A stretch of 64,000 nucleotides of DNA from Methylotenera sp. L2L1. GTDB taxonomy: Bacteria; Pseudomonadota; Gammaproteobacteria; Burkholderiales; Methylophilaceae. The stretch covers positions 2,542,001-2,606,000 of the forward strand of contig NZ_JQMG01000001.1 of NCBI RefSeq assembly GCF_000744605.1. The letters run 5' to 3'. The notes under the pieces were generated by a model that ran no database searches, was not told the DNA's origin, and was given only the letters and a program-made list of their open reading frames with translations. Below are positions 17,119 through 60,645 of this stretch, piece after piece. The stretch's first letter is position 1. Each line of letters begins with the position of its first letter. Made by a program: the position numbers and the translations under genes.

Positions 17119-17136
17119 ATAGTCCGAATAGACTAT
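17119..17136 (-). promoter_or_regulatory. PEP-CTERM upstream motif, site 1
   Basis: ATAGTC-CGAATA-GACTAT, a perfect 6-6-6 inverted repeat 136 bases upstream of the PEP-CTERM start at 16983. Its ten-base core TAGTCCGAAT recurs exactly upstream of the PEP-CTERM gene at 34816-35409, and related forms precede the other two. Confidence 0.5.
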
Positions 17137-17149
17137 TTTGTTGTGTACT

Positions 17150-17512
17150 TTATCTACTTCTTTGAATACGTCTTTTAAAGTAAATCACGAAAATTGCTAG
17201 CCCAACCCCAACAACATCAGCTAACCAGTCATCTAAACCTGCAAACCTACCTGGCAACCAAACCTGATGAAGCTCATCCAGCACACCTATCAGCAAAGCC
17301 AAAACTGCAGTTACAAACGTGCTAAAATTGAATCCACTCGAAAAAAACAAAGTGAGCATAAAAAAGAACACAACATGTGCCAGCTTATCCCAAGGGTTTG
17401 GAAATAAAGAGCCAGCACCATTTTGAGCACCGCCAATAAACAAAGCAGCCAGCATGCAAAAAAAGGCAATGACAGGTAACCATCCTTTAATATAATGATT
17501 ACGTGCAATCAT
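17150..17512 (-). CDS. VanZ-like family membrane protein
   Basis: A 120-aa inner-membrane protein with about four hydrophobic segments. The VanZ-like signature is present: PWDKLAHVVFFFMLTL near residue 40, then LDELHQVWLPGR near 78 and DDWLADVVGVGLA. Function of the family is not established outside teicoplanin resistance; small VanZ proteins often close polysaccharide operons. Its start overlaps the end of the upstream glycosyltransferase gene by 4 bases, so it is the last gene of the EPS transcript. A role in EPS or envelope assembly is inferred from position only. Confidence 0.8.
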   Translation of the reverse strand: MIARNHYIKGWLPVIAFFCMLAALFIGGAQNGAGSLFPNPWDKLAHVVFFFMLTLFFSSGFNFSTFVTAVLALLIGVLDELHQVWLPGRFAGLDDWLADVVGVGLAIFVIYFKRRIQRSR

Positions 17513-18639
17513 ACTGAATTCTTTTTCATTGAGTTTCTGTAAACTGAAACTGTTTCACCAGCAATCTTATTCCAGTCATACTTGCTAGCAACAAACTCAC
17601 GTCGAGCCTCTCGTGAGTGGTCATCACGCGTTTTTTGCACAACCTTTCTCATCATTTTTGCCAACTCATTAACATTTCCAAGTCTAAAATAACACTCATC
17701 GGGTAAACCAACTTCTAAATTTGCAGGAATATCACTGGCAATCACTGGCAAGCCGAAGCTCAAAGCCTCCAGCATTGCGATTGGCAAGCCCTCATGTGAA
17801 GATGGCAACACAAATAATCCTGCATGCGCATAAAGCTGATGAAGCGGCAAACCTTTCTGAAAACCAGCTAATACAACATCATGCGTTTGCTGAGCTGCGG
17901 CGTAAACTTTACCAGCATAGGCATCATTGTGGTCTGATGCGCCTACTAACACTAACTTCCAACCTGCTATCTCTGCACGAGAAAAAGCCTCAATCAAATC
18001 AAGATGCCGCTTCTCTTCAACCAGCCTACTCACTAATAAAATATATCTATTATGAATCAGGCCATGCTCATGCAAAGCGTCCATCGTCGTGGGTATTTCA
18101 GGTATTACAACGCCATTGGGAATAAGCGTAGATTTCACACCATGTTTGGCATATACCAAATCTGCGATTACTTTTGAAATTACAATACGACCATTTGATA
18201 AACGCATCCCCCACCGCTCACCCAACCGCAAAACAGTACGCGCAAAATGTCCCCATTTTTGCCTATCATAATCAGGGCCATGATGAGTCACAACAACGGT
18301 CAGTCCTAATAATCTTGCAAGTAGAGTAAGGATAGCGGGCCCAATAGCTTGAATATGCAAAATATCTGGTCGCTTGATTGCAGCATACAGCACGCCTAAA
18401 AAGCTGTGTAAAATTGCCTCCAACCCTTTAGACTTAGGTGCCCAAAGTGGTATGAACCTCACACCATTCCACATAGGGGAAACTTCAGCAGGCTGATATG
18501 GTGAACGAACTAAAACCGTCACATCACAACCTAACTTAGCTAGTCTTGGACATAAATGTTCAGCATGGGTCTCAACCCCTCCTTGTACGTTTGGAAAACC
18601 ACGCAAACCCAACATCATGACGCGAATCGGACGTGTCAT
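17509..18639 (-). CDS. GT4-family glycosyltransferase
   Basis: A 376-aa GT-B fold sugar transferase, presumably adding one residue to the lipid-linked EPS repeat unit at the cytoplasmic face. N-terminal GLRGFPNVQGGVETHAEHL is the acceptor-side glycine-rich loop. The donor-binding C-terminal domain has LVSRLVEEKRHLDLIEAF near residue 202 and the GT4 motif PSSHEGLPIAMLEALSFGLPVIASD near 278, an EX7E arrangement. Overlaps both neighbours by 4 bases. Sugar specificity cannot be told. Confidence 0.92.
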   Translation of the reverse strand: MTRPIRVMMLGLRGFPNVQGGVETHAEHLCPRLAKLGCDVTVLVRSPYQPAEVSPMWNGVRFIPLWAPKSKGLEAILHSFLGVLYAAIKRPDILHIQAIGPAILTLLARLLGLTVVVTHHGPDYDRQKWGHFARTVLRLGERWGMRLSNGRIVISKVIADLVYAKHGVKSTLIPNGVVIPEIPTTMDALHEHGLIHNRYILLVSRLVEEKRHLDLIEAFSRAEIAGWKLVLVGASDHNDAYAGKVYAAAQQTHDVVLAGFQKGLPLHQLYAHAGLFVLPSSHEGLPIAMLEALSFGLPVIASDIPANLEVGLPDECYFRLGNVNELAKMMRKVVQKTRDDHSREARREFVASKYDWNKIAGETVSVYRNSMKKNSV

Positions 18640-20947: not shown

Positions 20948-20965
20948 TTGTTATGCTTTCAATTA

Positions 20966-22081: not shown

Positions 22082-22111
22082 ATCTGCACTTAATTATAAA
22101 TTCCGCTAAAG

Positions 22112-25460: not shown

Positions 25461-25471
25461 AAAATGACCAT

Positions 25472-28606: not shown

Positions 28607-29305
28607 CTAGGGATAGCTTGTTACGTTAGAGGTAACACCAGCTATTTTTAGGCGGTTATAAGGTTGCATCCCGGTAAGAATGTCTTTCAAAAACACATCC
28701 TGGAGCAAATACCCCTGATCTGCATTTTCATTAATAGATGAAACTCTGAACAATAGTCCATCAGGAATTTCACCCCTAAAACCATATCGCAACTGCTCTA
28801 GCTTGGTCTCCTTACCGCCCATCACCACTTTGTCGCCAACAGTACTCCAATAAGTTAACGGCTCATTCCTATTACCTAGCGTTGTCATGATGCGTTTAAC
28901 GCGGATACTGCCAAAATTAGTGTTTAACTCATCATTTTTTGAAGAAACAATCTGAAATCCCTGTGCGGGGTAGCAAACCTCAGGATAATGTAACTGTTTA
29001 GCGTCGCTTTGATCTGCTCCATAAGCAATTGAAAGCATTATTCGATCACCTTTAGTATTGACATAAGTGCGAGCAAGCGTCTGCGTATAAATTTTCTTCA
29101 GCATCTCTGTCTGCTGTGGGTTTACAATTTGGCCAAACCGTTGTGGCTCTTCTTGCCAATCTCCAAACTGCTTTGGAATCATCACATCAAGATTGACCGC
29201 AGCTCCTTCTTCAGCAATTCTCTTCGTAGGGCGTAATGCTAAAGCTGCACCAGATGTACTTAGCATCAACACTGCAATCACTATATTTTTATATACGCGA
29301 TTCAT
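28607..29305 (-). CDS. epsI: Exosortase-associated protein EpsI
   Basis: A 232-aa protein with an N-terminal membrane anchor and a periplasmic EpsI (DUF3485) domain. Family marks: PKQFGDWQEEP near residue 44, SIAYGADQSDAKQLHYPEVCYPAQGF near 92 with the invariant CYP, and VVMGGKETKLEQLRYGFRGEIPDGLLFRVSSI near 163. Its start overlaps xrtB by 4 bases. In XrtA systems this domain is often fused to the exosortase; here it is separate. EpsI accompanies EPS production; its biochemical role is unproven. Confidence 0.93.
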   Translation of the reverse strand: MNRVYKNIVIAVLMLSTSGAALALRPTKRIAEEGAAVNLDVMIPKQFGDWQEEPQRFGQIVNPQQTEMLKKIYTQTLARTYVNTKGDRIMLSIAYGADQSDAKQLHYPEVCYPAQGFQIVSSKNDELNTNFGSIRVKRIMTTLGNRNEPLTYWSTVGDKVVMGGKETKLEQLRYGFRGEIPDGLLFRVSSINENADQGYLLQDVFLKDILTGMQPYNRLKIAGVTSNVTSYP

Positions 29306-30210
29306 TTCTGTAAATCTCCGCCACTCAAACGCATATTACGCTTATCCCAACGTTTAACTCCCAACTGCAACATAGAGTCAACACCCATGATTAAAATCAG
29401 CGCAACCATAAACAAGACCATTCCAGCAAACCCGTGTATAAACCCTTGGCCGGCTTCATCGCCAAAATGATAAGTGACCAATGTGAGCACCATGACGCGT
29501 ATAACGTTAGCTGTGAACGAAATCGGCACAATTAAAATAGCGAGTGTGATGTTGCGAAACAAAGAGTTATGTTTAACCAAGTTTAGATATAACAGCCCCA
29601 ACGCTTCCAGTGAAATCAACGTGTGCATACCAGCGCAAGCATCTGCTACCAACAGTTGATACGGGCCAATCTGCAAAATAACGCCGGCTCTTGCAATAGG
29701 ATAGCCAACCCAAAACAAAACATTTTCAGCCACATATGAAACTGCCATCTTCATGGGTAAAGTGACCGCATCAAGAAATACGCCTGGAAGCGGAATCATG
29801 AATAAGATAAAAAACAACGGAAACCACATTGCTTTAAGTGCAGGCATTCCTCTTGTTAGTAACAAGATGCCAGCCAACACTGGAATCTGCGACCCAATAT
29901 CTAGCAAAAATATATCTTGTGAACGCCCTAAGGTATAACACAGAAGGCCAAAAGCAAGACTAAAGCTACCCAATACTGGCCATGTTTCAACACTTGGATT
30001 AGGTTTTAAAGTTTCACGACTTTGCCAAATTAAGAACAGCACAACCATCAGTACAATTGGTCCGTGCGCTTGATCATCACTACCCCACAGTGATGTACTC
30101 AATGCATAATAAGTTGGAATATAGAGCGCTATTAAACCAAGTAAAACTGGCCACCATTCTGTTAGATTGGCTGAAACTGCATTACGCTGATTTAAAATGC
30201 TACTGGTCAT
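29302..30210 (-). CDS. xrtB: Exosortase (B type, EpsH family)
   Basis: Integral-membrane cysteine protease/transpeptidase that processes PEP-CTERM proteins. 302 aa, about eight hydrophobic segments. The catalytic triad is visible: Cys192 in ADACAGMHTL, Arg238 in ANVIRVM and His259 in GFIHGFAG. The stand-alone form beside epsI, epsG, epsF, epsE and epsD matches exosortase B loci such as the methanolan cluster of Methylobacillus. Its predicted substrates here are the four PEP-CTERM proteins at 15484, 34816, 37522 and 59238. Type B is inferred from context and not from a model score. Confidence 0.92.
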   Translation of the reverse strand: MTSSILNQRNAVSANLTEWWPVLLGLIALYIPTYYALSTSLWGSDDQAHGPIVLMVVLFLIWQSRETLKPNPSVETWPVLGSFSLAFGLLCYTLGRSQDIFLLDIGSQIPVLAGILLLTRGMPALKAMWFPLFFILFMIPLPGVFLDAVTLPMKMAVSYVAENVLFWVGYPIARAGVILQIGPYQLLVADACAGMHTLISLEALGLLYLNLVKHNSLFRNITLAILIVPISFTANVIRVMVLTLVTYHFGDEAGQGFIHGFAGMVLFMVALILIMGVDSMLQLGVKRWDKRNMRLSGGDLQK

Positions 30211-34815: not shown

Positions 34816-35409
34816 TTAAGATTTAGTTTTACGACGGAACGCCATGAACCCAATCAGCATCAAACCTGCTGATAATGAACTCCAAATACCCGGCTCTGGA
34901 ACCAAGCTAACGTTATCTAAACTGCCACCAAAACCATCACTTAAACCAGTGGCGGCAAAAGAAAGTTTGTCGCTACCTGTGCCCATCACTGAAAAGCTAA
35001 TGGTGTACCAGTTATTGCCATTTTTACCAATACCACTACCAGTGATTTGTGATAATAATGAACCGTTCCAAAACGCTTTAATTGGGTTAGATTGACTAGT
35101 AACACCTTCACGTGGCGAATAGTCAAAAGACAAATCATAAATAGAACCAGCTGTTGTGCTAACCATTTGAAAAATTGAGTTATTGGCATTAGTATCTAAT
35201 TCAACATAGTTAACCCCATCGGACGCTACGCCAGAAACATTGTTACGCAACTCGACATTATTAACACCAACCCAACCTGTTAGATTGTTATAGATACCCC
35301 AAGAACCATTAGCTTGTACATCAGCCTCAAAAGAACCATTAGTCACTAAGTTAGCATTTGCTAACGATGGCAAAGACAGCATTGCCAATAAAAATGCAGC
35401 TTTTCTCAT
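34816..35409 (-). CDS. PEP-CTERM protein with galactose-binding-like domain
   Basis: A 197-aa secreted protein: signal peptide MRKAAFLLAMLSLPSLANA, then LVTNGSFEADVQANGSW...TGWVGVNNVELRNNVSG, the start of a DUF642/choice-of-anchor type jelly-roll that usually binds carbohydrate, and a C-terminal VPEPGIWSSLSAGLMLIGF plus FRRKTKS sorting signal. It lies inside the EPS locus between epsL and epsD with its own terminator. The shared PEP-CTERM upstream motif is 84 bases before the start. Likely a matrix protein that associates with the EPS after exosortase processing (inference). Confidence 0.88.
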   Translation of the reverse strand: MRKAAFLLAMLSLPSLANANLVTNGSFEADVQANGSWGIYNNLTGWVGVNNVELRNNVSGVASDGVNYVELDTNANNSIFQMVSTTAGSIYDLSFDYSPREGVTSQSNPIKAFWNGSLLSQITGSGIGKNGNNWYTISFSVMGTGSDKLSFAATGLSDGFGGSLDNVSLVPEPGIWSSLSAGLMLIGFMAFRRKTKS

Positions 35410-35492
35410 GTCATTTCCTTTATCAATAAGTAAGTATGTTTTACATGCACTAATTATTCATGGCTTGAATGACAAAAGGTTGATTCCACCCA

Positions 35493-35508
35493 CTCCATTC
35501 GGACTAGG
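35493..35508 (+). promoter_or_regulatory. PEP-CTERM upstream motif, site 2
   Basis: CTCCATTCGGACTAGG; the ten bases ATTCGGACTA are identical to site 1 (minus strand). It lies 84 bases upstream of the PEP-CTERM start at 35409 and after the epsL stop. Confidence 0.5.
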
Positions 35509-37521: not shown

Positions 37522-38637
37522 TTAACATAATTTAAACTGATTAATTTTTCGGCGACGTAAAACCAAACCGATCAAACCTATCCCGGCGGACAACATACCG
37601 TAGACCTCTGGCTCTGGAACAGGAGTTAATAAAAAAGCGCGCGTCTGCCATTGCGAGTTATATCCATAGCCTACAATCTGGCCTCGGTTGTTTATGTCCT
37701 GTGCGTCAGTCAATGTCCACCCAGTACCAGCAATACCATTAAGTGCGTTAAGGTCTGTCATGATGCCATTTTCGTAAATGAAAGCGTGGTTATCATCGTT
37801 TAAAGTATTAGCATAACCAACAACAACGCCATGATTGTTGACTTCATTTGCCCCACTGAACCTTCCGCCCAAAGTGCCAATATCAACCATATCGCCGTCT
37901 TGATAGATAAAACCATGATAACCATCATTGTTTGCTAAATAAGCGGCGCCTACAATCTGCCCTGAGTCATTAATACCTGACGCCCAGCTATAAGTGCCTC
38001 CTAAAGTACCAAGATCAACGATATCTGTCCCGTTGTAAAGAGTTGCGTGCTGTTCTTTATCATCTGCTGTATATGAATATCCAACAATCTGACCGGAATT
38101 ATTAATATCATTCGCACCGTTTACACGGCCGCCCAAAGAATCCAAACCTTGGAAATTACCATTATCGTTAAGGTATGCCGATGATGATGAAAACCATTGC
38201 GTGTAAGCGCTACCTACAGACTGCCCAGCTTCATTGATGGCACTGAGGTTAGTATCGCTATAACCCCATGTACCTAGATCTCTCATACTTTCGTTGCTAT
38301 ATTGAAATGCGTGGCCATATATATCATCACTTGATGTGTACGAGCTTCCTACAACCTGACCATTGTTGTTGATATCGTAAGCAAAGCTATCTGTTCCACC
38401 TAGTGTTCCGAGATCAGTCATCTTGCCATTTTCATAAATAAAAGCATGCCTAACGTAATCACCCAGCATATATGAGTACCCGACTACTTGACCTAAGTCG
38501 TTAAGTCCAAATGCATAACTGTGGTTACCCCCTAACGTACCGAGGTCTGTGATTTCGTATGTGGGAGTAGCTACGACAGGCTGAGATATCATTAATCCCA
38601 ACAAAGTAGACGTATAGATAAAATAATTAACACTCAT
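37522..38637 (-). CDS. HAF-repeat PEP-CTERM protein
   Basis: A 371-aa secreted protein. After a signal peptide ending near ISQPVVA come about seven repeats of roughly 44 residues built on DLGTLGG....A..IN..GQVVGYSY, the HAF-family extracellular repeat, which probably folds as a beta-propeller. The C-terminus is VPEPEVYGMLSAGIGLIGL plus RRRKINQF, the exosortase sorting signal. The protein ends with a Cys after the basic tail, which is unusual. It lies at the head of the EPS locus and has the shared upstream motif 85 bases before its start. Confidence 0.9.
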   Translation of the reverse strand: MSVNYFIYTSTLLGLMISQPVVATPTYEITDLGTLGGNHSYAFGLNDLGQVVGYSYMLGDYVRHAFIYENGKMTDLGTLGGTDSFAYDINNNGQVVGSSYTSSDDIYGHAFQYSNESMRDLGTWGYSDTNLSAINEAGQSVGSAYTQWFSSSSAYLNDNGNFQGLDSLGGRVNGANDINNSGQIVGYSYTADDKEQHATLYNGTDIVDLGTLGGTYSWASGINDSGQIVGAAYLANNDGYHGFIYQDGDMVDIGTLGGRFSGANEVNNHGVVVGYANTLNDDNHAFIYENGIMTDLNALNGIAGTGWTLTDAQDINNRGQIVGYGYNSQWQTRAFLLTPVPEPEVYGMLSAGIGLIGLVLRRRKINQFKLC

Positions 38638-38721: not shown

Positions 38722-38740
38722 ATAAGCCGAATGAACCAAG
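38722..38740 (-). promoter_or_regulatory. PEP-CTERM upstream motif, site 3
   Basis: On the minus strand GGTTCATTCGGCTTATA; shares CATTCGG and the TA end with sites 1 and 2. It lies 85 bases upstream of the HAF-repeat gene start, almost the same distance as site 2. Confidence 0.42.
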
Positions 38741-41378: not shown

Positions 41379-42083
41379 TTAACCGACAGAGCGTGCTGTC
41401 ACTCTTAGTTTTACAGGTTGAGGCATATCATTTGGGGGTGAGTCTAAAAGTGGCGGCATACCGTCAAGTGCTTTTTTAAGCAGCATGTCTTTTTCAGAAT
41501 CACCACTAGTGCCGACTAACTCATATCGTTCAATACGGCCACTAGATGCTATCCATATCTTGACCACTACTTTGTAAGCACTATTGGCAAGCACTTTATC
41601 TTTTGCCATCGCATCTTCAATTTTGTTTTTAATTAAATCGGTATACCAAGCAAACTGATACTTACTAGGTCCTCCGCCAATTTTTGTACCTACATCTCCA
41701 CCCTTATATTCGTTATTCACAGTGCCTGCGGCAAAGGGGCTTGGCCCATCACCAGCAGCACCCTCCATTTTCAGTACTTCAGCTGGTGGGGTTTGCTCAG
41801 GTTTAGGCTGTGGAACCTCTTTAACTTCTTTAGGTTGATCTTTTGGCACCTCCTTGGGTGGCTCTTTAGGAGGTGGAGGTGGTGGTGGAGGTGTATCTGG
41901 CAATAGCTTAATAGTTGTGACTGCCTTTTTACCGGTAGAGCTGCCAGAAAACAGTCCTTTCACCATGTAACCCAATGACGCTAGAACAATTATTACGACT
42001 AATACAATCGCTATTCTCTTCACCCAAATAGCCTTAGCACTAGGCTCGTGCTCATCATCTTGATTGATATCTACGTTATGCAT
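41379..42083 (-). CDS. tonB: TonB-family energy transducer
   Basis: A 234-aa inner-membrane-anchored protein. One TM near residues 22-44 (VKRIAIVLVVIIVLASLGYMV), then a Pro/Lys-rich periplasm-spanning stretch from about 62 to 105 with seven consecutive prolines, and a C-terminal TonB domain (YKVVVKIWIASSGRIERYELVGTSGDSEKD). It would carry proton-motive-force energy from ExbB/ExbD to an outer-membrane partner. Its start overlaps the exbD stop by one base (TAATG). The clustering with TpsA/TpsB suggests a dedicated TonB. Confidence 0.88.
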   Translation of the reverse strand: MHNVDINQDDEHEPSAKAIWVKRIAIVLVVIIVLASLGYMVKGLFSGSSTGKKAVTTIKLLPDTPPPPPPPPKEPPKEVPKDQPKEVKEVPQPKPEQTPPAEVLKMEGAAGDGPSPFAAGTVNNEYKGGDVGTKIGGGPSKYQFAWYTDLIKNKIEDAMAKDKVLANSAYKVVVKIWIASSGRIERYELVGTSGDSEKDMLLKKALDGMPPLLDSPPNDMPQPVKLRVTARSVG

Positions 42084-42487
42084 TACGTACCAATCTTTCC
42101 AGTCACAAGACCGACATTAGTAATTTCCATTCTTGTCACTAAATCAATGACACTAATAACGCCTGCGTATGGGGCGTTTGCATCACCACGAATCATGACT
42201 GAAAACTCAGGGTCTTTTGATCTAGCTGCGTTAAGTTGCGTTTCAAGCTCACTCAGGCTAACACCTACACCGTTTATCAATACGCCACCGCCTTGCTGTA
42301 CCTGCACGATTTTCACATCATGCTTTTCAGTGCTGGGTTTATTAGAAGGCTTAGGTAGGTTCATGGTTAAACCTTGTACACCCGCAGTTGTCATTAAAAT
42401 AAAAATAACTAGCAGCACATAAGCCAAATCAAGCATTGGCGTGATATTGATAGTGTCATAAGGTTGTGCGTCGTTTTGTACTTGCAT
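42083..42487 (-). CDS. exbD: ExbD/TolR-family protein (second copy)
   Basis: A 134-aa single-TM protein. The N-terminal TM with the functional Asp is INITPMLDLAYVLLVIFILMTTA; the periplasmic ExbD domain follows (VSLSELETQLNAARSKDPEFSVMIRGDANAPYAGVISVIDLV). It pairs with the neighbouring ExbD and the ExbB fusion in a proton channel. It is clearly paralogous to the gene upstream in the TM region but differs in the periplasmic part, so a heteromeric stator is possible. TAATG coupling to tonB. Confidence 0.92.
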   Translation of the reverse strand: MQVQNDAQPYDTINITPMLDLAYVLLVIFILMTTAGVQGLTMNLPKPSNKPSTEKHDVKIVQVQQGGGVLINGVGVSLSELETQLNAARSKDPEFSVMIRGDANAPYAGVISVIDLVTRMEITNVGLVTGKIGT

Positions 42488-49400: not shown

Positions 49401-52400
49401 GACAACAGATTGACCATCTTTAGTTGGCGAGAATCCACTAGCTATTGAAGCTGCACGAGACGCAAACGCATTAGTATCAGCTGCGATCAATGTCCGGTTT
49501 CTAGCGTCAATTGTAAAGTCTCCAACCTTGTCATATACCTTTACAGCCTCAACCAACATCCTGCTAGCACCTGTTACTGCAGCGGTCGATCCTACCTCAA
49601 CATTAACGCCTGATCCTATGACATCAGAACCATTCGCTTGATTAGCGGATGACACCAACTGAAAATTGGTGCCATCAAACACTGCGATATAAGTTTTCCC
49701 TGCTACCAAGTCACCCGATGATAGTGTGTTGCCGCCATCTTTTCTAATGAATCTGGCTCCTAGTGAATTTACGTTTAGTCTAGTTGTTGTGCTTCCATTC
49801 ACATTTGGCTTAAATGCAACGACCATACCTGGAGTCAAAGTAAAATCAGCTACAACTGCATTGAGGGTTGCACTACTACCAGTTGTGGTAACGGGATTAA
49901 ATACTGCGTTGTCAGTGCTCGTTTGCATAGCACGGAATATGACTTCACCACCTTCTCCTTTGATACTGCCTACTTGATCACCAGACACATCAATCAGAGC
50001 GCCTGACAAGCCACCAGCATCGGTAGACTCAACCTTTACTACCCCAGTCTCGGAAGAAATTAAGACATCACCTCCATTACCTAAACTACCTGCTGTACTA
50101 TTGGTATCTGCAAGCCCTTTTGCAAAAATTTGAGAGCCTCGATTAACAGTAACATCATTTTTTGCATAAACCTGAACGTTTCCACCTTTATCGCCCGATG
50201 CATCAATCTTGCCATTTATTGTGATCGCACCATTATCTGCAATAAGTTTTACTTCTGTCGCAGAAATATTATCTGCGACACCTATCTCTAAATCTCCACT
50301 ACGTAGTCGATAAGTTTGCTCACCAGAAAATGTACTCAACGTAGCAATGGTTCGGCTAATATCAGAAATCACCTTGGCATCTACAATCGCCGCTGCATTT
50401 TTGCCCTTAGCACCGGCTGTTGCTGCTTTAATTTCTCCCGCCAGTTTAGCCTCACCATTGATGGCAGAAACCACCAACTTGCCAGCATCGCCATTACCAG
50501 CTGCGGTTAAATCAACTAATGCGCCTTGCTGAACATCAACATCACCTTTTTTAGAAGTCAGCGACACCTGCCCTGCTGGTAAAGCAACTGTTTGGTCATT
50601 CAACGTGTAAGTACTGCCTTGAGCCAAGATTCGTGCACCATCTTCTAGCACAACATTGCCAGTCGAAGCTTCCAGACTAGTTTTAGCACCACGCATATCA
50701 ATGGTTGCACCATTGGCTAGCAACACTTGCTCACCACTCAATTTAAGCTGCGTACCTTGTGATGTTGCCGCAGCCAAAGCTTGCTGAGATGTTGCGTCAC
50801 TTTGGACTTTAAGTAAACCGTTAGTGGCTTGAATCGCGTAATCGGCTTTGTTACTTGCTGTAATGCGTGGTGTATTAATAGTTAAGTTTTTATCTGCCAC
50901 CAGTTTATTTGAAGAAGCCGAATCACTCACGCGCGGAGCGTTGCCTTGCACTAACAATTCTTTGCTAGCTGCAATATCCACTTGGTCAAAACCAGCTAAA
51001 CGAACAGTGTTATTTCCAGTAACGACCTTTTCAGCTTTAATATTTAAGCCACCTGTACCTAATGCTGGCACGGTGTTTGCACCAAGTGCTGGAGCAGGCT
51101 GTACGAAGATTGCATTATCATTATTAGCCAAGGTCAAATTACGTGTAGTAATCGTGGTTGTTTTGCCTGCATTTTGGTAGCCAGCAACACCTGCACTTTG
51201 TAACGTGAGATCAAAACTGTTATTACCAAAACTTGCATCGCCATATAAATCGACGGTTGATTTACTTTGTAAAAACAAGCTGCCAGCATCAACAAACTTG
51301 TCTAATTGAGGCTTTTGCAGCCATAAACCATCTGTGACTGCCTCATTATTATCAGGCGAGCCTAAGCTAATATGACTTGATGAGAAACCTAAAGCTGCGC
51401 CATCAGCAAACTCAATATCCCCTGCTACATCCATTTTTTTGGATGCATCTAAGAATACCGAGCCATTGCCTTCTACAGTCGCACCTGATTCAACGGTTAG
51501 TTCACCACGGTCACCATCAGTATTCAAACGAGTTACCTTTGTTGCTGTACCGCCAGAAACTCTCACCAATGCACCGTCACCATCAGCGCCATTAACAGCA
51601 CCTATCGTTAAATCTTTTGATGTTGCGCCAGCACCTGCACCTTTTAGGTTTGCGCCTGAATCTAACAGCACATTATTAGTTGCCGCCAATATGACTTCCG
51701 GGCCAACTAAATCAGCATTTTCACTCAGCCGCACATCGCTAGAAACCACATCTAACGTACCGTTGCTACGCGTACCACCCAACAGCAAGCTGGCTGCATT
51801 AAAATTGGTGAGTGTTGCCTCATCAATTGCAAGATATGTCTCGCCATCTTTTGTTACCAAACCAGTTTGCTCACCTGCACCAACAATAAGTAATTTAGGG
51901 GCAGCAATATCAACTTCTGCACCTAACCCATTTTTCCCAGGTAAAGCTTTTAGTAAACCATTCAAAACCAAGCTATTCGTTGCAGCAATTGAAAGTCGCC
52001 CTGCATCTGCAACCTGCTGCGCCTGTGTGTTACTTTTAAAATATGTACTTGCTTTAGTGGTGTTGTATTGCGCTAACTTGTAAGCATCAGTGCCTGCACG
52101 TACCACAAATCCAGCAGTACGAGAGCTCTGCACATAACCATTAGAGGTATAAGCCGCCAAATGACCTGAAACCAGAGTGCTACCATTAACAAGCGTTTGC
52201 GATACTCCAGCCGTTCTATCTTGATGGCCTGAAACTGACGACACCAACATTGCACCCGGCAGTAAGGCATAACGCGCTGGCAACAATGTGTAATACCCGG
52301 CAGCCAAGCCAGGAACACCAGAAATATAAACCGCATCACCAGCTTTAATATCACTGCCTTGCCAATATTGTGCATCAAAGCTAGCGAAGGTTTGGTTATT

Positions 52401-55400
52401 AGCCGGCATGATCGCCCACGTATCTTTAGCATCTTTGCCAAAAGCGCTCTGATTGGCATTGCTAGCTAAAACATCGCTGCTACCGCCAATCCCAGGCACC
52501 CATTCATAAGCAAATAAATCTCCGCCACCGCTTACATCCACTGTACTGCCATCATTCTGATTAACATTTGGCGCATTGAGCTTTACTACACGCTCTGGTG
52601 GGGCAGTGAACTGCTGACTATTGGGTCCAAAATCGTATAAGTAATCGAGACCATCTCTATCGGTATATCCAAATGGTATTAATGCCCCCTGCGCTGAAAC
52701 CGAAGTCACACTACCTGAGTTCAGGTTAAGCGTATCACTGGCATTTAAAGAAATAGTGCCAAAAGGCGCGAGTATCACCCCATTTTGATCGATTGTTTCT
52801 GCGTTAACCGTGAGCTTTCCGCCAGCAGACAATACTTTATCGTAACTATCATTGGGGTTGATTTTATTAAAGCTGACTTTACTACCAGCACCATTTACCG
52901 TGACTGTGAAATCTGAAAGTGACGTTGGATAAACTTGACGCGCATTAAAGCTAAGTTCGCCTGTCGTTAGCAACTGCCCCACTGGCGGCTGACTCAGCCC
53001 ACCAACAGAGACATTCGGGTCGCTCACACCAGTCATTCGAATATCACCAGTGCTGTTAAGTGCTGTAGTTGCAAAACGAGAGAGGGAAAATTTACCTTTT
53101 AAATCCAACAAATTAGCATTAACAGTCAGATTAGCAGTGCCCGCCACAGGCGTAGTTGCCTGATACTCACTATTAGGTCTTAAAGGTTTAGTCTCAACAT
53201 CATTTGCAATCACCACATTCGGTGCACTTAATTTAACAGTAGCGCCATCAGTGGCTTCAATTACCCTAGCGTTCAAGCTTAAGCTGCGCGATACGGCTAA
53301 ATCCACATCGCCCGTAAATCTCACGCCATGTTCAGACTTTAGTGCAACATCGCTAAAGCCAGCATTCATCATGTTATCTGCTGATATTTTTGCAAGACCT
53401 GCCGCTGATTGCTGTATTGAGTCACCAACAGATAAAGTATTTGAAACAAACGTACCGCCTTGACTCAAATCTACATACCATAGCTGGTCTGGCAGATTAC
53501 CAGTAAATCCGTTATCAATACTTGGTGCAGTACCTGGGTATATAGCGGATATAAGACCAATAGTACGTGAGCCACCACGTGTTAAGCTAATGTCTAAGCT
53601 ACCACCTAAACCATCAGGCGATGATGCACTTAATGTTGAATCTATCAACATCCCCTCACGTGCGCTCAGCGAAATATCTCCGCCATTACTCGCTACTTTA
53701 GTTGGTGTATATCGATTCAGGTTTTTCACATCAAATACTGCTGATGTCCCAGAAACATCCATGATTGACCCAGCTTCAGCAACCACATAACCTTTTTTAG
53801 CGTCCAATGTAATATGGCCACCGTCGTAGACAACACCCTCCCTCAACAAACTACCAGAGGGTAACGTACGCGTATATCCAGATGCTACCAACTTTGCATT
53901 CTCACCCAGCCATATTGCCTGTGCGGCGTTATATCCAGGGTCACTATTCGCTGTTGGATCACCGTTCATCGTCAGTGAAATATCACCACCTAAAGCCTGT
54001 AATGTACCATCAACATATAGTTGATTATCCCAAGCTGAAAGCGCGATACTGGGTGGTAACTTTTCACCATCTGAATTTGTTCGCATACCATTGGCATCGA
54101 CTTTTATGCTGGCACCTGTTTCTACTACTATGCTGCCCCTTGAAACACCGCTAGCTGCAAACGCGTCAGAGGGTAAATCAACATTAGTAGATTGGGTGGA
54201 CAAAGCTAGGCTGGTAGAGCTACGCATATAATCAGGCAGAACAGTGATCATAGATAAATCATGAACATGTCCGCCACTGGCTTTAAGCTCGTAGCCTCTA
54301 TTGAGAAAATAATTCTTGGCGATTACATCAACATTAGTATTGGTACGCACTAAAACACCATCGCGACCAGTGAGGTTAAAACTTGCGAAACCACTATTCT
54401 GAAATAAATCAGGCGTTGCTAAAAATTCTCTAGGATCACCAAGACCAGTATTTCCAACCGTAATAAATGGCGCAGTAATTGATAAGTCACCACCTGTTCC
54501 CATTGCAAAGCCACGTAACTCACCGTTCAATTCAGGTGCAACATACGTAAAAGGGTTATCTTGGCCACCTTGCCCAACTTGAGTAGCAATATCGATGCTA
54601 CCGGCATCACCTTTTACTAAATTACCGCCCTGCTGCAACCATCCACCACCAGATACATCAACCAGACTACCGCTGCCTAGCTTAACCTCATCACCAGAGT
54701 TGATTGAAACCTTACCACCATCAGTGAGTACACGTCCTTTAACAGAGCCAGCTAATTTATCATTTACCCAATTACCGGATACATCTAAGGTAACGCCATC
54801 TGATACTTTGATATGAGTATCATCTGCAATGACAGTGCCCTCGGTAAAAGAGCTTTTCAATGCAATACTACCGCCCCTAGCAATAATATCCTGATTAACC
54901 TCCACATCGCGACCTGACAGTGACAATTTACCACCATCTGCAACTTTAATCGCAGCGTTTACTTTCACATTAGCTGCAGTGCTGATTGAAATATCTTCAA
55001 AACCACTTCGGTTAAGCATCGCTGCATCAACTTCTACAGTATTGATACGTGATGCTGGCAGTGCATCTGTAGCACTAAAGTTAGCATTAAGCGTTGTTGT
55101 ATTCCCTACGTTGACGTCATGCCCACCAGCACCTGTTGGTGTCATCACATGAATATCTAAGGTACCGCCCAAGTTTTTAGATTCACGCTGATGTTCACCA
55201 TAAGTCGCACCACCTGATATTTGCCCATCTAAAGCCAAATCATAAGTATCAATGGTCAACTTACCTGCAGCCTTGCCCTCCGTGTACCCAGCCTCTTGCA
55301 ATTTTCGCGTATTGGTTCCGCCTAAAAATCTAGTAAATAAAGTATCTACAGGCGCATCACCCAGCGCATATGCTTTACCATCCTGAGCAACGACCCAGCT

Positions 55401-57422
55401 CTCTTTATTCCAACCACTATTAAATTTGAGTGAGCCTCCAGAAACATCTACTGTCGAACTACTGCTCTGAATCAAATCACCTTCAGACTTTAAACTTACT
55501 GCACCGGCTGTTGCCAGCTTTTCACCAAGTGAACGTGGCACTTGCTTCACAAAGCCAGCTAGATCAGCTACGCGAGAGTCTGGCGTATTGCGAATATCAA
55601 ACCAAACTTTTTCTCTATACAAAAACCCATCTCGGTTGATGGGGTCATCTTTTAAATCAGTCAAAGTGAGTAATACTTCAACAAAGTTACGCTCCATATC
55701 CACTGCCACGTTTTTCAAACCAGCAGCGTCAATCAGCGTGTTTTTGCCAAGGAACAAACGAGATTCAGCGTCTTTTGTATCGATGGGTGTACCTGCACCG
55801 CCTACATTAAAGCCTTGCCCAAACTTTTGCGCAGAAATATTGATAAATCCACCAGGCGCAACAATTTTAGCGTTATCACCAATCGTTACTTGGTGACCAA
55901 CCGCCTCTATCGTGGGCGCGTTAAATACTTGGTCGTCAGTGAGTGTAGAGCCTTTAACGTTAACAGCACTCAACACTGTGTCAACATAAGACTTTTCACC
56001 AACTTTAGTTGCAGGCACTCCTGCTTGTGTCGTTGCAAAAATTTCATTTGCTTTAGCAAGTGCGGCACTATCTTCTGCAAGGACAGTAGTAACACTATTA
56101 GCACCTACTCCTAGCTTGCCAGTACGACTACCATTAATAATGGTATTTTTTGTCGCTGTCGCTGTGCCATTCTGTTGAAGCCTTGTTGCAAAATCTATTG
56201 GTTCTTCGGTGGTACTTGGTTCGATAGATGCAAAACCAGCAACGGTGGTATCACGAGCCAATAGTCGGATTGAACCTTTTTGAGTAGCAGATGAAGTGGC
56301 GGTAACTCGACCATTCTGATTAACTAAAAATGAAGCCATCGTGACATTGCCGCGCTGAGAAAGAATTCGGCCCATCGTATCGTTGATTACTTCACCAGTA
56401 AGTTTGACTTTTAAAGGGTCACCATTTGCATCTGTCACAACATTACCATTGGTATCTTTTTGGTCGACAATATAATCGGGTGAGTCCACCTCGACTAAAA
56501 CACCAGCCAAACCTCTATAAGGCGAATCTTGAGTATAGTTATAAACACCTTCTGAAGAGCCCGCGTTTAAATTAGGTGCAACAGACAAATACACTTTATT
56601 ACCTGCTGCCATTGCAATTTGGCCTTCAGTCGCTTGTATGCTGCCTTGGTTGATGACTTTAGATCCAAACAACATCACAGATCCGCCTAGAGCAGCTTTA
56701 ATATGCGCATCAGGTTCTACCTGTATTAACGCATTTTCATAACCAGCCGCATCCCCACCCCATACGTATGCAGCTCTACCGTCGTTGACATAAGCACCAA
56801 GGTGCCCAAGATTACTCAGAAAGTCACTATCTTTAATATCCAAGGTTGAAGCGACCAAACCATTTACGTCAACGCGTGCACCATTACCAAACAAAATACC
56901 ATTTTGGTTAATGAGATAAATAGCACCTTTAGGCGAGTTAAGTGCACCTTCGATAATACTTTTCGGCCCATTAATACGAATAAGCGTTGCTGAACCTGAA
57001 CCAGCTGTATGATTGAAATTGACTGCACTCGCATTACCAATATTAAAATTGGTGCCGCTCATAATGCCTTTGAGGCTAGCTTGATCAATATTAAGTAACT
57101 GACCATTGATATTGGCTGGATTTATAACTGGCGCGTGTATCGTAATGTTTCCTGTCACAACATTTAAGCCTGTAGGAATCGTATTTGCAGGCAAATTTGG
57201 GTCTGCAAACGCAACACCCATAAAGCCAGTAGTGCTAGTCCCTAATAATAAAATGTAGAGACAAGCAGCTTTAGAATTTAACGCATGCGCGTTGCCAAGA
57301 GATTTTTTGCTAACTTTATCTTTACCACTTTTTCCTGATTGATGACTACGTACATGCTCACCCACAGCCATCCACAAGCCGCGTGATTTGTTGAAAATAA
57401 GACGATAAATTCCGCTATTCAT
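46479..57422 (-). CDS. TpsA filamentous-haemagglutinin-type exoprotein
   Basis: A 3647-aa secreted adhesin. It has an extended signal peptide: ESPR MNSGIYRLIFNKSRGLWMAV, a basic region, and hydrophobic CLYILLLGTSTTGFMGVAFA. A TPS secretion domain spans about 82-330, with GTNFNIGNASAVNFNH and LINQNGILFGNGARVDVNGL, the NPNGI-like motif. A very long beta-helical repeat region follows, then a C-terminal DUF3739-like segment (QVFFAELKAGG, LLVPGGLVNAGLAV, VNQSRVFTLGGSNLMLYS, IDAGKGAKTSSSTPPP). A tail-fibre-like module sits near residues 2506-2599. I chose 57422 because AAAGGA lies nine bases upstream and the ESPR starts there; a longer frame begins at 57479. Secreted through TpsB. Confidence 0.93.
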   Translation of the reverse strand: MNSGIYRLIFNKSRGLWMAVGEHVRSHQSGKSGKDKVSKKSLGNAHALNSKAACLYILLLGTSTTGFMGVAFADPNLPANTIPTGLNVVTGNITIHAPVINPANINGQLLNIDQASLKGIMSGTNFNIGNASAVNFNHTAGSGSATLIRINGPKSIIEGALNSPKGAIYLINQNGILFGNGARVDVNGLVASTLDIKDSDFLSNLGHLGAYVNDGRAAYVWGGDAAGYENALIQVEPDAHIKAALGGSVMLFGSKVINQGSIQATEGQIAMAAGNKVYLSVAPNLNAGSSEGVYNYTQDSPYRGLAGVLVEVDSPDYIVDQKDTNGNVVTDANGDPLKVKLTGEVINDTMGRILSQRGNVTMASFLVNQNGRVTATSSATQKGSIRLLARDTTVAGFASIEPSTTEEPIDFATRLQQNGTATATKNTIINGSRTGKLGVGANSVTTVLAEDSAALAKANEIFATTQAGVPATKVGEKSYVDTVLSAVNVKGSTLTDDQVFNAPTIEAVGHQVTIGDNAKIVAPGGFINISAQKFGQGFNVGGAGTPIDTKDAESRLFLGKNTLIDAAGLKNVAVDMERNFVEVLLTLTDLKDDPINRDGFLYREKVWFDIRNTPDSRVADLAGFVKQVPRSLGEKLATAGAVSLKSEGDLIQSSSSTVDVSGGSLKFNSGWNKESWVVAQDGKAYALGDAPVDTLFTRFLGGTNTRKLQEAGYTEGKAAGKLTIDTYDLALDGQISGGATYGEHQRESKNLGGTLDIHVMTPTGAGGHDVNVGNTTTLNANFSATDALPASRINTVEVDAAMLNRSGFEDISISTAANVKVNAAIKVADGGKLSLSGRDVEVNQDIIARGGSIALKSSFTEGTVIADDTHIKVSDGVTLDVSGNWVNDKLAGSVKGRVLTDGGKVSINSGDEVKLGSGSLVDVSGGGWLQQGGNLVKGDAGSIDIATQVGQGGQDNPFTYVAPELNGELRGFAMGTGGDLSITAPFITVGNTGLGDPREFLATPDLFQNSGFASFNLTGRDGVLVRTNTNVDVIAKNYFLNRGYELKASGGHVHDLSMITVLPDYMRSSTSLALSTQSTNVDLPSDAFAASGVSRGSIVVETGASIKVDANGMRTNSDGEKLPPSIALSAWDNQLYVDGTLQALGGDISLTMNGDPTANSDPGYNAAQAIWLGENAKLVASGYTRTLPSGSLLREGVVYDGGHITLDAKKGYVVAEAGSIMDVSGTSAVFDVKNLNRYTPTKVASNGGDISLSAREGMLIDSTLSASSPDGLGGSLDISLTRGGSRTIGLISAIYPGTAPSIDNGFTGNLPDQLWYVDLSQGGTFVSNTLSVGDSIQQSAAGLAKISADNMMNAGFSDVALKSEHGVRFTGDVDLAVSRSLSLNARVIEATDGATVKLSAPNVVIANDVETKPLRPNSEYQATTPVAGTANLTVNANLLDLKGKFSLSRFATTALNSTGDIRMTGVSDPNVSVGGLSQPPVGQLLTTGELSFNARQVYPTSLSDFTVTVNGAGSKVSFNKINPNDSYDKVLSAGGKLTVNAETIDQNGVILAPFGTISLNASDTLNLNSGSVTSVSAQGALIPFGYTDRDGLDYLYDFGPNSQQFTAPPERVVKLNAPNVNQNDGSTVDVSGGGDLFAYEWVPGIGGSSDVLASNANQSAFGKDAKDTWAIMPANNQTFASFDAQYWQGSDIKAGDAVYISGVPGLAAGYYTLLPARYALLPGAMLVSSVSGHQDRTAGVSQTLVNGSTLVSGHLAAYTSNGYVQSSRTAGFVVRAGTDAYKLAQYNTTKASTYFKSNTQAQQVADAGRLSIAATNSLVLNGLLKALPGKNGLGAEVDIAAPKLLIVGAGEQTGLVTKDGETYLAIDEATLTNFNAASLLLGGTRSNGTLDVVSSDVRLSENADLVGPEVILAATNNVLLDSGANLKGAGAGATSKDLTIGAVNGADGDGALVRVSGGTATKVTRLNTDGDRGELTVESGATVEGNGSVFLDASKKMDVAGDIEFADGAALGFSSSHISLGSPDNNEAVTDGLWLQKPQLDKFVDAGSLFLQSKSTVDLYGDASFGNNSFDLTLQSAGVAGYQNAGKTTTITTRNLTLANNDNAIFVQPAPALGANTVPALGTGGLNIKAEKVVTGNNTVRLAGFDQVDIAASKELLVQGNAPRVSDSASSNKLVADKNLTINTPRITASNKADYAIQATNGLLKVQSDATSQQALAAATSQGTQLKLSGEQVLLANGATIDMRGAKTSLEASTGNVVLEDGARILAQGSTYTLNDQTVALPAGQVSLTSKKGDVDVQQGALVDLTAAGNGDAGKLVVSAINGEAKLAGEIKAATAGAKGKNAAAIVDAKVISDISRTIATLSTFSGEQTYRLRSGDLEIGVADNISATEVKLIADNGAITINGKIDASGDKGGNVQVYAKNDVTVNRGSQIFAKGLADTNSTAGSLGNGGDVLISSETGVVKVESTDAGGLSGALIDVSGDQVGSIKGEGGEVIFRAMQTSTDNAVFNPVTTTGSSATLNAVVADFTLTPGMVVAFKPNVNGSTTTRLNVNSLGARFIRKDGGNTLSSGDLVAGKTYIAVFDGTNFQLVSSANQANGSDVIGSGVNVEVGSTAAVTGASRMLVEAVKVYDKVGDFTIDARNRTLIAADTNAFASRAASIASGFSPTKDGQSVVITPGVEVRASGDLTIDNNWNLGSSNITNATAAQSVQGGGILTLRAGNNLKIEGNIDNEDFTVISTHASLRQKQNSWSYRLVAGADTASANLEATNSDGVADTKNLIVADGRYIRTGKGYIHAIAGNNIQLGDTGGSGAAIYTEGLHDDSKFMPLGFNYTKFGVVTGSLLGAERELYADGGGDVLLKAGSDITGSESSAEFQGVGAWLYHAAFEGNIANAQARWWSRYDRFTNGVAALSGGDVKVVAGGALSNMQIAAATNGRMGGDVNSAPDIANFSELGGGDVSIKTDGSVDQVLLHAGKGTIKVESGSNINVALSLMKSQVDLTATGDVAVISASNPTIGDSAVSSNRVKFYTYDEQTSISTKSVDGDVTVKGDEHVFPSKLSAVAASGDVNVEKVVLYPAAKGNVTLLAGNDVTINSLIMSEVNPNSLPTISTENLKVAVNPVLNSYQDIASHTEGLLHMDDPDPVRVYAENDVVFKVQNPLVTPKRVEVKAGHDVVDPNIIVQNLKATDVSTIEAGNAIRYNEPVRNGDSIEATEAGIEVAGPGRLHLIADGDIDLGTSNGVRSVGNLYNPYLSEQGADIMVQPGAAAVADYNGILNAYVEPSSQYSSVYLPLLSKYMQALTGDDSLTASQALVDFKLLDRQAQTAFINQVFFAELKAGGLDAINATSQTFGDYSRSERAILQMFPTFTTNQNLISQAGSIMAGFGDIANEQVTHPGDLSLFYSQIRSERGGRIELLVPGGLVNAGLAVAGNLEKSDTELGIVSLRGGELVAMVRNDFQVNQSRVFTLGGSNLMLYSALADIDAGKGAKTSSSTPPPVIRIEDGKVAYDYSGAVSGSGIAALTATGGKPGDVDLFAPYGEINAGEAGIRSAGNINLGARVIIGADNISAGGVTTGAPVASTAGLSISTPASTDSANNSKQGNQLGDAAKQAANTKLAAMPSLISVEVISLGDESSASNKQSDESKKAKN

Positions 57423-57546
57423 ATCCGTAAATCCTTTACCAAACAAAAGTTCATGTCGATTAAAAATGCTTCGCGACAACCTTTTTAACTAAATCTCTAA
57501 ATTAATCAAAAGGCTCTCGACAAGCGATGCTCATCGAAAACACAAA

Positions 57547-57574: not shown

Positions 57575-57612
57575 ACTCAAATCACATGTGATTCACACGC
57601 AATTGATTCAAA

Positions 57613-59130: not shown

Positions 59131-59189
59131 GATTTAATTCCCTTAAATATATTTAATAAAATATCGAAATAAAAACGTTTTGCAGCTAA

Positions 59190-59219
59190 CCCTTAATGCT
59201 TTTTAAAAAAGATTAAGGG
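59190..59219 (-). terminator. Hairpin after PEP-CTERM gene
   Basis: CCCTTAAT / ATTAAGGG with an A/T-rich inner stem, about 20 bases past the stop codon of the PEP-CTERM gene at 59238. It resembles a terminator with an internal T-run. Confidence 0.6.
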
Positions 59220-59237
59220 CAGCAGAAATTACTAAAA

Positions 59238-60098
59238 CTACTTAGCTAAATTGTTACGACGGCGACGAGCGATAAAGCCCATTAAACCCAGACCAGCTAA
59301 CATCATTGCGTTAGTTTCTGGCTCTGGCACAGCTTGTACTGCTGCTACTTGTAGGCGCCACTCATTGCCTTGCAAGTATGTTTTTGCAACGATAGCTTTA
59401 CCGTCAAAAGAGAAGAGTTGTTGTTGTAAAGCTTGTGCAGCGCTTGAAGCCTGAGTAGTTGGGGCAAGGAAGTACATATTTGCACTAGCACCTAAGAAGC
59501 TTGATGTATCAGCAAGGTTACCGTTAAAATTATTACCACCAAATGTAGCACTACCAGCGTAAGCATTGCCGTTTGTGTCGTTTGTTACAGCATAAGTATC
59601 ATCTGCAGGCGCTGTAATAAAGCCATTTGTTGCCGGTGTGTAGGCACCGAATAAGGTAACTGCCGCTTTTACTTGGTTGTTAGTTGAAACAAATGGCAAT
59701 CCAGAGTCGCCTTGAGTCATCAGTAGGCGAGTACGACCTGCATTGTCAAATGCACCCAAGTTCCATTGCACATTTGAAGCACTTGCAAATGGCAAACCAG
59801 TCAAGGCGCCATCAAAAATAATACCATTTGTACCGATTAGTGAAGACTGCACTACTGCATTAGCTGCTAATAGTGCATTACCTGTAACTGTCGTTGCTTG
59901 ATCAATACCTACAACATCTGTGAAAGCTTTGTCCCAGTTCAGATCGTAGGTATAACCAACACCTGCTACTGAATCCCATGCACTAAATACGAATTCAGAG
60001 TTACCGTTACTAGCGCCAGAAGAAATAGCAGCATTAGCTGATGTAGCAACTGCTGATAATGCCAATGCAGCTACTAAAGTTTTCAATTTAAAATTCAT
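59238..60098 (-). CDS. PEP-CTERM sorting-domain protein
   Basis: A 286-aa exported protein. Signal peptide MNFKLKTLVAALALSAVATSANA, a beta-rich Asn/Ala/Thr-rich body with no domain I recognise (GVGYTYDLNWDKAFTDVVGID; GNEWRLQVAAVQA), and the sorting signal VPEPETNAMMLAGLGLMGF plus ARRRRNNLAK. The ATG at 60098 is preferred: AAGGGG lies eight bases ahead, while the ATG two codons upstream would be almost on top of it. No cysteine is visible in the mature part. A candidate for exosortase B processing, far from the exosortase gene. Confidence 0.88.
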   Translation of the reverse strand: MNFKLKTLVAALALSAVATSANAAISSGASNGNSEFVFSAWDSVAGVGYTYDLNWDKAFTDVVGIDQATTVTGNALLAANAVVQSSLIGTNGIIFDGALTGLPFASASNVQWNLGAFDNAGRTRLLMTQGDSGLPFVSTNNQVKAAVTLFGAYTPATNGFITAPADDTYAVTNDTNGNAYAGSATFGGNNFNGNLADTSSFLGASANMYFLAPTTQASSAAQALQQQLFSFDGKAIVAKTYLQGNEWRLQVAAVQAVPEPETNAMMLAGLGLMGFIARRRRNNLAK

Positions 60099-60104
60099 TT
60101 CCAT

Positions 60105-60645
60105 ACCCCTTTAAAAGTCATTAAAAAATAATTACATCTATTACTAAACAAACCACTTAAATTCTTTGCTACTTAAAGCAGCGATGATTCAAACTTCTGT
60201 GTCTATAAAACATCAATCTGCTATAAATCAGCGCAACACCTTTTCGCGACTGTTGCTATGTTATTCAATGAATATGTTCAATATGTTTTTGAAACTAGTC
60301 CTATCGGCTTACAAAAACATCTTTTTTTCATGATTCGAAAAACATTCAAAATTCGTTTAAACAAACTTGGTTAGCACGGAATAGGATGATGGTTTAATTA
60401 GATGACATGCATTTTCTGCATTACTAGTTCTAAAGGACTAGATCTAGATTTTTAGCAACACTGATAGATATTTAGAGATAAGGTAATGCCACACTAATCA
60501 AAATGTGTAGTGAGCGGCATTCATTTTTTTTGTAAATAAAAGTTAATACACACCTACAAAGTCACATTAGCGTCACTTTTTAAAAGTACGATGCAAAAAT
60601 TGAATTAACCACAACTCCATTTTTTACAACGTACAAAGGACCTGT
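60105..60645. other. 540-base intergenic region between divergent genes
   Basis: Lies between the PEP-CTERM gene (-) and dsbC (+). It contains PEP-CTERM motif site 4 at 60295-60311 and a related semi-palindrome CTAGTTCTAAAGGACTAG at 60424-60441. I found no gene or RNA in it. Confidence 0.6.
60295..60311 (+). promoter_or_regulatory. PEP-CTERM upstream motif, site 4
   Basis: CTAGTCCTATCGGCTTA, 197 bases upstream of the PEP-CTERM start at 60098. It keeps TAGTC of site 1 and CGGCTTA of site 3. It is further from its gene than the other sites. Confidence 0.4.

Follow-up and report, generated by a model that had tools for sequence, protein, structure and literature searches.

A symmetric dyad upstream of PEP-CTERM genes in a Methylotenera-type methylotroph, the probable operator of a regulon with EpsA as the best candidate regulator

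An operator-like dyad at an exosortase locus

The genes encoding PEP-CTERM proteins, the putative substrates of exosortase XrtB, appear to be preceded by a common operator in the Methylotenera-type methylotroph Methylotenera sp. L2L1. The window, that is the whole stretch of 64,000 nucleotides that was analysed, spans positions 2542001-2606000 of a genome assembled as one contig of 2.64 Mb and carries an exopolysaccharide locus with XrtB, a B-type EpsI, EpsF, EpsL, EpsD, a CAAX protease, four PEP-CTERM proteins and the regulator EpsA; judged by EpsA, Methylotenera genomes are the closest named relatives. The element common to the sites upstream of the PEP-CTERM genes is the dyad TAGTCC-N4-GGACTA, which is clearest as an 18-base-pair (bp) form when it is read together with the copies found in relatives. 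From sequence comparison, these sites are probably the operators of one regulon, at which a dimer of EpsA would act as an activator of the XrtB substrates and of some exopolysaccharide genes, and this reading is held with fair confidence.

A preliminary description of the window had aligned four sequences upstream of the PEP-CTERM genes under the asymmetric consensus [T/C]A[G/C]TC[T/C]ATTCGG[A/C][C/T]TA. The four sequences were confirmed at their places and distances from the gene starts, but the consensus had to give way to the symmetric dyad once the relatives had been read. Good copies of the dyad, which has no strand, are present at three of these four sites and at 60424. Site 1 (17119..17136, ATAGTCCGAATAGACTAT) lies upstream of a gene of the choice-of-anchor I family (15484..17022, minus strand; NF038117, 499.9 bits; TIGR02595, 24.8 bits) and is, as had been proposed, a perfect inverted repeat, TAGTC-N6-GACTA. 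Site 2 (35490..35507, CCACTCCATTCGGACTAG) precedes a choice-of-anchor C-like gene (34816..35409, minus strand; TIGR02595, 20 bits with a cut-off of 16; TIGR04362, 47.9 bits, under its cut-off). Site 4 (60295..60312, CTAGTCCTATCGGCTTAC) is the proximal site of a pepA-like gene (59238..60104, minus strand; TIGR02595 above the cut-off; NF033554, 40.8 bits, under its cut-off), and the fifth dyad (60424..60441, CTAGTTCTAAAGGACTAG) is the distal site between this gene and a divergent dsbC-like gene. In the 16-bp form the copy at 60424 has one mismatch and sites 2 and 4 have two each, and in the 18-bp form site 1 itself has three mismatches because its outer bases are A/T.

A symmetric matrix was made from 43 dyads (35 distinct) found upstream of PEP-CTERM genes in ten congeners, with the window's genome excluded; its training sites were preselected at up to two mismatches to the dyad, so that the shape was given beforehand. 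Applied to the window, the matrix places 17119 first (23.3 bits), 60424 second (16.4 bits), 60295 third (15.1 bits) and 35490 fifth (12.8 bits), the fourth rank being taken by a position within a gene (25648, 14.2 bits). By simulation, the number of equally good sites expected by chance in 64 kb is 0.05 for 60424, 0.09 for 60295 and 0.45 for 35490, and a score such as that of site 1 is expected less than once in 6 Mb. The copy at 60424, previously regarded as a weaker relative of the motif, in fact matches the dyad better than sites 2 and 4 do.

The claim that all four sites share the motif holds for sites 1, 2 and 4, but is doubtful for site 3 (38722..38739, ATAAGCCGAATGAACCAA), a degenerate sequence upstream of a PEP-CTERM gene with HAF repeats (37522..38637, minus strand; TIGR02913, 243 bits; TIGR02595 above the cut-off). 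Roughly one half-site is left in site 3, whose 6.8 bits give it rank 12 in the window, at the background level: about 7 such sites are expected by chance per 64 kb, and P is about 0.025 for a 250-bp region. Homologues of the HAF-repeat gene in G016 (C33) and G028 (C15), 41% identical, have dyads with two mismatches at -96 and -118; these speak weakly for site 3, its own score does not, and the site is held as doubtful.

Conservation and enrichment among congeners

With regard to the genus, 52 congeneric genomes were searched for PEP-CTERM genes; 20 of them contained 147 hits in all, and for 142 of these hits the upstream region was of sufficient length. Eleven of the congeners encode EpsA of the clade to which the window's protein belongs (a) or of its sister clade (b), and are referred to here as EpsA a/b genomes. 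Within 250 bp upstream and with at most two mismatches, the dyad is found at 43 of the 87 PEP-CTERM genes of the EpsA a/b genomes (30 at one mismatch or fewer), against 5 of 55 in the genomes without EpsA a/b, three of these five being in G026. The reversed dyad used as a control was found upstream of none of these genes in either group, and shuffled sequences gave 0.4, so that the enrichment upstream of PEP-CTERM genes, which the earlier hypothesis required, is borne out. Counted over whole genomes at one mismatch or fewer, there is a mean of 6.5 dyads in the 11 EpsA a/b genomes versus 0.8 in the other 41 (P 2e-7), whereas the reversed control shows no difference (5.3 versus 7.1, P 0.72). Genomes rich in PEP-CTERM genes that lack EpsA a/b, namely G035 (15 hits), G010 (17) and G036 (11), hold 1, 2 and 0 dyads, respectively.

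The same element emerges when its shape is not given. An unbiased enumeration took in every 5-bp dyad with a spacer of 0-16 in the 250 bp upstream of PEP-CTERM genes. In the 11 EpsA a/b genomes TAGTC-N6-GACTA ranks first, with 21 of 75 region clusters containing it; its own shifted version follows with 6 clusters and the next dyad with 4, and shuffles reach at most 5. It is absent from the listed top dyads of the other genomes with PEP-CTERM genes. Furthermore, phylogenetic footprints are seen in G016, whose EpsA is 82% identical to that of the window. Site 1 lies in 21 consecutive identical bases with diverged flanks, the dyad at 60424 is conserved over 16 identical bp within a poorly conserved stretch, and a dyad stands at the equivalent place before both G016 homologues of the gene behind site 2. 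Site 4 falls within 24 identical bases that form the upstream edge of a leader almost unchanged down to the start codon. Conservation upstream of homologues thus held for sites 1, 2, 4 and 60424.

The pepA-like leader is itself of interest (60100-60295), since the approximately 195 bp from site 4 to the start codon are nearly identical in G016 and include a possible hairpin, GCAACA...TGTTGC. An RNA element was considered for this leader, and no Rfam match was obtained in window positions 59900-60700 at E ≤1. Another shared sequence, the 16-mer TAGTTCATAAGGACTA at L369:1460, occurs also in G062, G022 and G012, that is in four genomes of the genus of which three lack EpsA a/b, and is perhaps a conserved coding stretch.

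Copies across the genome of the window

Copy number does not reveal the dyad in its own genome. The loose motif is not enriched in the window (187 matches at up to three mismatches versus 191.7 in shuffles) or in the genome (686 at up to two mismatches versus 1764 for the reversed control), and no excess over the reversed control is found in the genome for the 18-bp form at up to three mismatches (24 versus 63) or for the 16-bp form at up to one (5 versus 5). At two mismatches or fewer, the 18-bp form has three copies in the 2.64 Mb, all three upstream of PEP-CTERM genes, and three of the five 16-bp copies with at most one mismatch lie within 400 bp upstream of such genes; for this location the binomial probability is 4e-9. 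For the two remaining 16-bp copies, at 1183406 and 1497057, no target stands out. The signal of the dyad is one of strictness and location, not of copy number.

A chance resemblance picked out by eye would agree with the lack of enrichment of loose matches and with the background score of site 3, but it is contradicted by the enumeration, the reversed control, the footprints and the matrix from which this genome was excluded. As an explanation of the whole it is extremely improbable: chance is refuted for sites 1, 2, 4 and 60424, and may yet account for site 3. A common regulator for the PEP-CTERM sites, as first suggested in the preliminary description, is strongly supported, because location in the genome, footprints, enumeration and the matrix trained on other genomes all point to it.

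The notion that the window holds the only four PEP-CTERM genes is correct for the window itself, but a fifth is present elsewhere in the genome (TIGR02595 above the cut-off; GTG start at L083:11342) and it too has a dyad (L083:11431-11446), one of the strict copies just counted, 89 bp upstream of the GTG start or 125 bp upstream if the first ATG is the start. Similarly, no copy before other genes was seen among the matrix hits inspected within the window, but outside it the dyad ATAGTCATATAAGACTAT (L083:15824-15841, genome 2621824) stands about 70 bp before galE. In G026, ATAGTCCACTGTGACTAT is likewise found before galE. The surroundings of the window's galE form a second polysaccharide cluster close to the window (L083:9451-18646), with a WcaJ-type sugar transferase, galE, a nucleotidyltransferase-like gene and the PEP-CTERM gene, seemingly under the same dyad.

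EpsA as the candidate binder

EpsA (61434..62291, minus strand) is a LuxR/CviR-like protein. Its profile matches CviR (3qp5) over residues 16-262 with an E-value of 2.7e-30, and its AlphaFold2 model, with a predicted local distance difference test (pLDDT) of 84.2, retrieves CviR, QscR and RhlR in Foldseek with E-values down to 1.8e-11, the whole-chain template modelling score (TM-score) being only about 0.4. An N-terminal ligand-domain fold is followed by a LuxR helix-turn-helix, which amounts to the full LuxR/CviR architecture. At 227 bits (cut-off 170), the protein is a member of TIGR03020, the family of XrtB/PEP-CTERM-associated transcriptional regulators, and it sits with XrtB and exopolysaccharide genes. 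In a tree of 48 EpsA-like proteins, the window's EpsA falls in clade a (7 rows), with the sister type in clade b (7 genomes, with a long-branched row from G034). The helix of both clades reads TVK[NK]H[VLM]Q and that of the paralogues NTVK[NS]H[LVI]K; clades a and b are about 30% identical to each other, yet they are found with one dyad.

The association appears to extend beyond the genus. A scan of named genomes with EpsA yielded 40 loci, of which 30 were examined (L375-L404, with L375, L376 and L383 repeating genomes already used). These contain 38 dyads at one mismatch or fewer, 19 of them perfect, and 24 of the 38 are followed by a PEP-CTERM gene within 400 bp; the reversed pattern occurs five times and never before such a gene. 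Among the 18 loci that by title fall outside the methylotroph family (L387-L404), 7 hold 12 dyads, four of them before PEP-CTERM genes, with three copies of the reversed pattern, and perfect copies are also present in EpsA loci of other Beta- and Gammaproteobacteria. Since the peptide VKNHVQNI was among the scan patterns, the conservation of the helix in these loci is not independent evidence. EpsA, which fits genome by genome and across families, is the best candidate for the protein that would bind the dyad.

In L390, a locus published under the title of a Bordetella parapertussis metagenome-assembled genome, an EpsA gene adjoins a PEP-CTERM gene with a perfect dyad; because of this combination the title is probably wrong. 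In two relatives (L381/L382) the dyad is found about 98 bp before genes for GT4-type glycosyltransferases. These had been considered as EpsB-like, which proved wrong; the proteins are of GT4 type and score under all cut-offs.

Promoter spacing and proposed mechanism

Hexamers resembling a -10 element are concentrated at three distances from the gene-proximal end of the dyad, 22-23, 32-33 and 43-44 bp, with 10, 10 and 6 cases in 35 sites and 10, 25 and 10 in an enlarged set of 65, the offset of 32-33 bp being supported best; at site 2, for instance, AATAAT lies 33 bp downstream. In 34 strictly non-redundant sites, 21 -10-like hexamers stand at these offsets, against a shuffle mean of 5.7 with a maximum of 12, and 4 on the far side. 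The best single period is 5.0, followed by 9.7-10.0, and 10.5 is also beyond all 1000 shuffles. The clusters are about one helical turn apart, as expected of an activator site. If the -10 hexamer starts at -12, the dyad centres would fall near -42, -52 and -63; LuxR- or CRP-type activators sit at such places, near -42 typically, and dimers of the LuxR type bind dyads of 18-20 bp.

In the mechanism proposed, an EpsA dimer would bind TAGTCC-N4-GGACTA with one recognition helix per half-site, a signal presumably acting through the N-terminal domain, and would activate sigma-70-type promoters from about -42, -52 or -63 on one face of the helix. Substrates of XrtB, the PEP-CTERM proteins, would in this way be co-expressed with some exopolysaccharide genes, the candidates being galE here and glycosyltransferase genes in relatives; such co-activation of PEP-CTERM and coat genes is suggested because dyads precede galE, here and in G026, and the GT4-type glycosyltransferase genes. 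The dyad is probably the docking site of the neighbouring regulator, which would co-activate surface-protein and sugar-coat genes.

The pairing of dyads at pepA-like promoters, at 60295 and 60424 here and with a separation of about 80-145 bp in relatives, a pair being present also in G007, would suit a different role, in which EpsA acts as a repressor or loops the DNA between paired sites. This is judged unlikely, since the favoured -10 hexamers are not covered by the dyads, which stand at phased distances upstream of them, the pattern of LuxR- and CRP-type activation.

Several observations weigh against activation of one regulon by EpsA. In the EpsA a/b genomes, 44 of the 87 PEP-CTERM genes have no dyad, and 37 of 72 dyads lie beyond the set distance from any listed PEP-CTERM gene, some of these preceding weaker PEP-CTERM genes. 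G026 has dyads before three of its five PEP-CTERM genes and no EpsA of clade a or b was detected in its assembly, where the contig of the locus ends at the homologue of the window gene 42083-42487, well before the place of epsA. Conversely, G034_1 is placed in clade b, at the end of a long branch, and its genome has neither a PEP-CTERM gene nor a dyad. None of the seven clade-a epsA genes, the window's included, has a dyad with at most two mismatches in the 350 bp before it, and autoregulation of epsA was rejected on this ground; clade-b epsA genes have upstream dyads with two mismatches in G004 and G017, and with one at -259 in G061. Over 24 other genomes of the order, the exact dyad occurs once each in 4, two of them among the 4 best EpsA-like genomes and two among the 20 others, so that its agreement with EpsA-like hits seems patchy. 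As for the promoters, the Rayleigh P at 10.5 bp is only 0.045 at the strictest filter, and the -10 offsets were tested on a set that includes the sites where they were first seen.

Some of these points would equally suit a genuine PEP-CTERM regulon operator bound by another transcription factor that travels with EpsA, to which the dyads of G026 and the clade-a epsA genes without a dyad of their own lend weight, together with the fact that part of the co-occurrence within a single genus reflects common descent. Nevertheless, EpsA is the regulator identified at this locus among the part of the genome's regulators that was profiled, and it adjoins the pepA-like gene; moreover, EpsA loci of distant families also hold the dyad, and two clades so far diverged share helix residues and accompany one dyad. 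Another factor thus seems improbable, although it deserves consideration. The earlier proposal of EpsA as the regulator stands as far as EpsA co-occurs with the dyad and is its best candidate, and is qualified by G026 and by the patchy picture in the order.

Relation to known PEP-CTERM regulation

According to Haft et al. 2006 (PMC1569441), the PEP-CTERM box is a motif ending in TTTACA that goes with a sigma-54 promoter and the PrsK/PrsR system, and further PEP-CTERM regulators and DNA motifs were expected to be found. Later work is reported to show RpoN dependence for one PEP-CTERM gene of Aquincola (PMC9850573) and binding of a Desulfovibrio response regulator to predicted PEP-CTERM targets (PMC3333781). 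Like the box, the dyad precedes many PEP-CTERM genes of a genome and goes with a regulator linked to an exopolysaccharide locus. It differs in its sequence, with no TTTACA, and in having sigma-70-type -10-like hexamers, a LuxR-type regulator, and XrtB in place of the PrsR-linked system.

The dyad could nonetheless be the described box, that is an enhancer site for PrsR with a sigma-54 promoter: the same genes are concerned, and a sigma-54-like motif with at most two mismatches occurs in 11 of the 87 upstream regions of the EpsA a/b genomes versus 3.95 in shuffles, a weak excess. PrsR (TIGR02915), however, is above its cut-off in none of the 52 genomes of the genus (best 421 bits versus 502.6), TTTACA is not enriched (9 of 87 versus 11.8 in shuffles), and neither TTTACA nor, within three mismatches, TGGCAC-N5-TTGC is present upstream of any of the window genome's five PEP-CTERM genes. 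This identity is therefore highly improbable.

EpsA shares its fold and domain order with the LuxR-type quorum regulators CviR, QscR, RhlR, SdiA and TraR, but the box sequence is unlike theirs. The TIGR03020 model names the regulator only, and an operator and targets are proposed here for it; no description of this dyad, of an EpsA operator or of an EpsA regulon was found in the open-access literature searched. What appears to be new for the XrtB-type system is a proposed operator of defined sequence, together with a candidate regulator and a list of predicted targets. With these, the switch of such methylotrophs between free-living and flocculating or biofilm states becomes directly testable, and unannotated genes can be singled out by the dyad as predicted exosortase cargo or coat genes.

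A second dyad and possible matched pairs

In the genomes without EpsA a/b, a second dyad, [AG]CCC-N4-GGG[CT], lies 30-200 bp upstream of 20 of 54 PEP-CTERM genes, with at most 1 in shuffles and none for the reversed pattern; in the EpsA a/b genomes it is found at 6 of 86 (shuffles at most 2). Fuller copies such as TTCACCCGAACGGGTGAT have the form TCACCC-N4-GGGTGA, of the same 6-4-6 geometry; the second dyad stands upstream of PEP-CTERM genes in G010, G035, G036, G009 and G007 (e.g. L253, L315, L321 and L235). The pattern was picked after inspection of the upstream sites, and the number of TCACCC dyads in a genome does not track its PEP-CTERM content: 51 of the 52 genomes have at least one copy at one mismatch or fewer, and genomes free of PEP-CTERM genes reach 10-11.

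The shared geometry suggests that the second dyad may be bound by an EpsA paralogue. EpsA proteins and dyads might then form matched pairs on exosortase B cargo, clades a and b (TVKNHxQ) with TAGTCC-N4-GGACTA and, where these clades are missing, a paralogue (NTVK[NS]HLK) with approximately TCACCC-N4-GGGTGA, an idea put forward tentatively, as it falls somewhat short of being probable. If true, exchanges of operator and regulator would rewire the sets of surface proteins, and G007 would run two regulons side by side. The second dyad would also offer a natural series for the joint change of a LuxR-type helix and its operator. At the fifth PEP-CTERM gene of the window's genome, both kinds of dyad lie nearly adjacent, AACCCATTAGGGTT and then TAGTCTGTATGGACTA (L083:11431-11464, genome 2617431-2617464).

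Other features of the locus

XrtB is encoded in the same locus as EpsA at 29302..30210 on the minus strand (TIGR03113, 437.5 bits, cut-off 275). The gene divergent from the pepA-like gene (60646..61383, plus strand) encodes a DsbC/DsbG-like thiol-disulfide protein (NF008129, 79.9 bits, under the cut-off of 215). Inside the exosortase locus there is also an adhesin-like open frame of 3666 amino acids at 46479-57479, and in G026 the eps contig breaks off short of the corresponding position.

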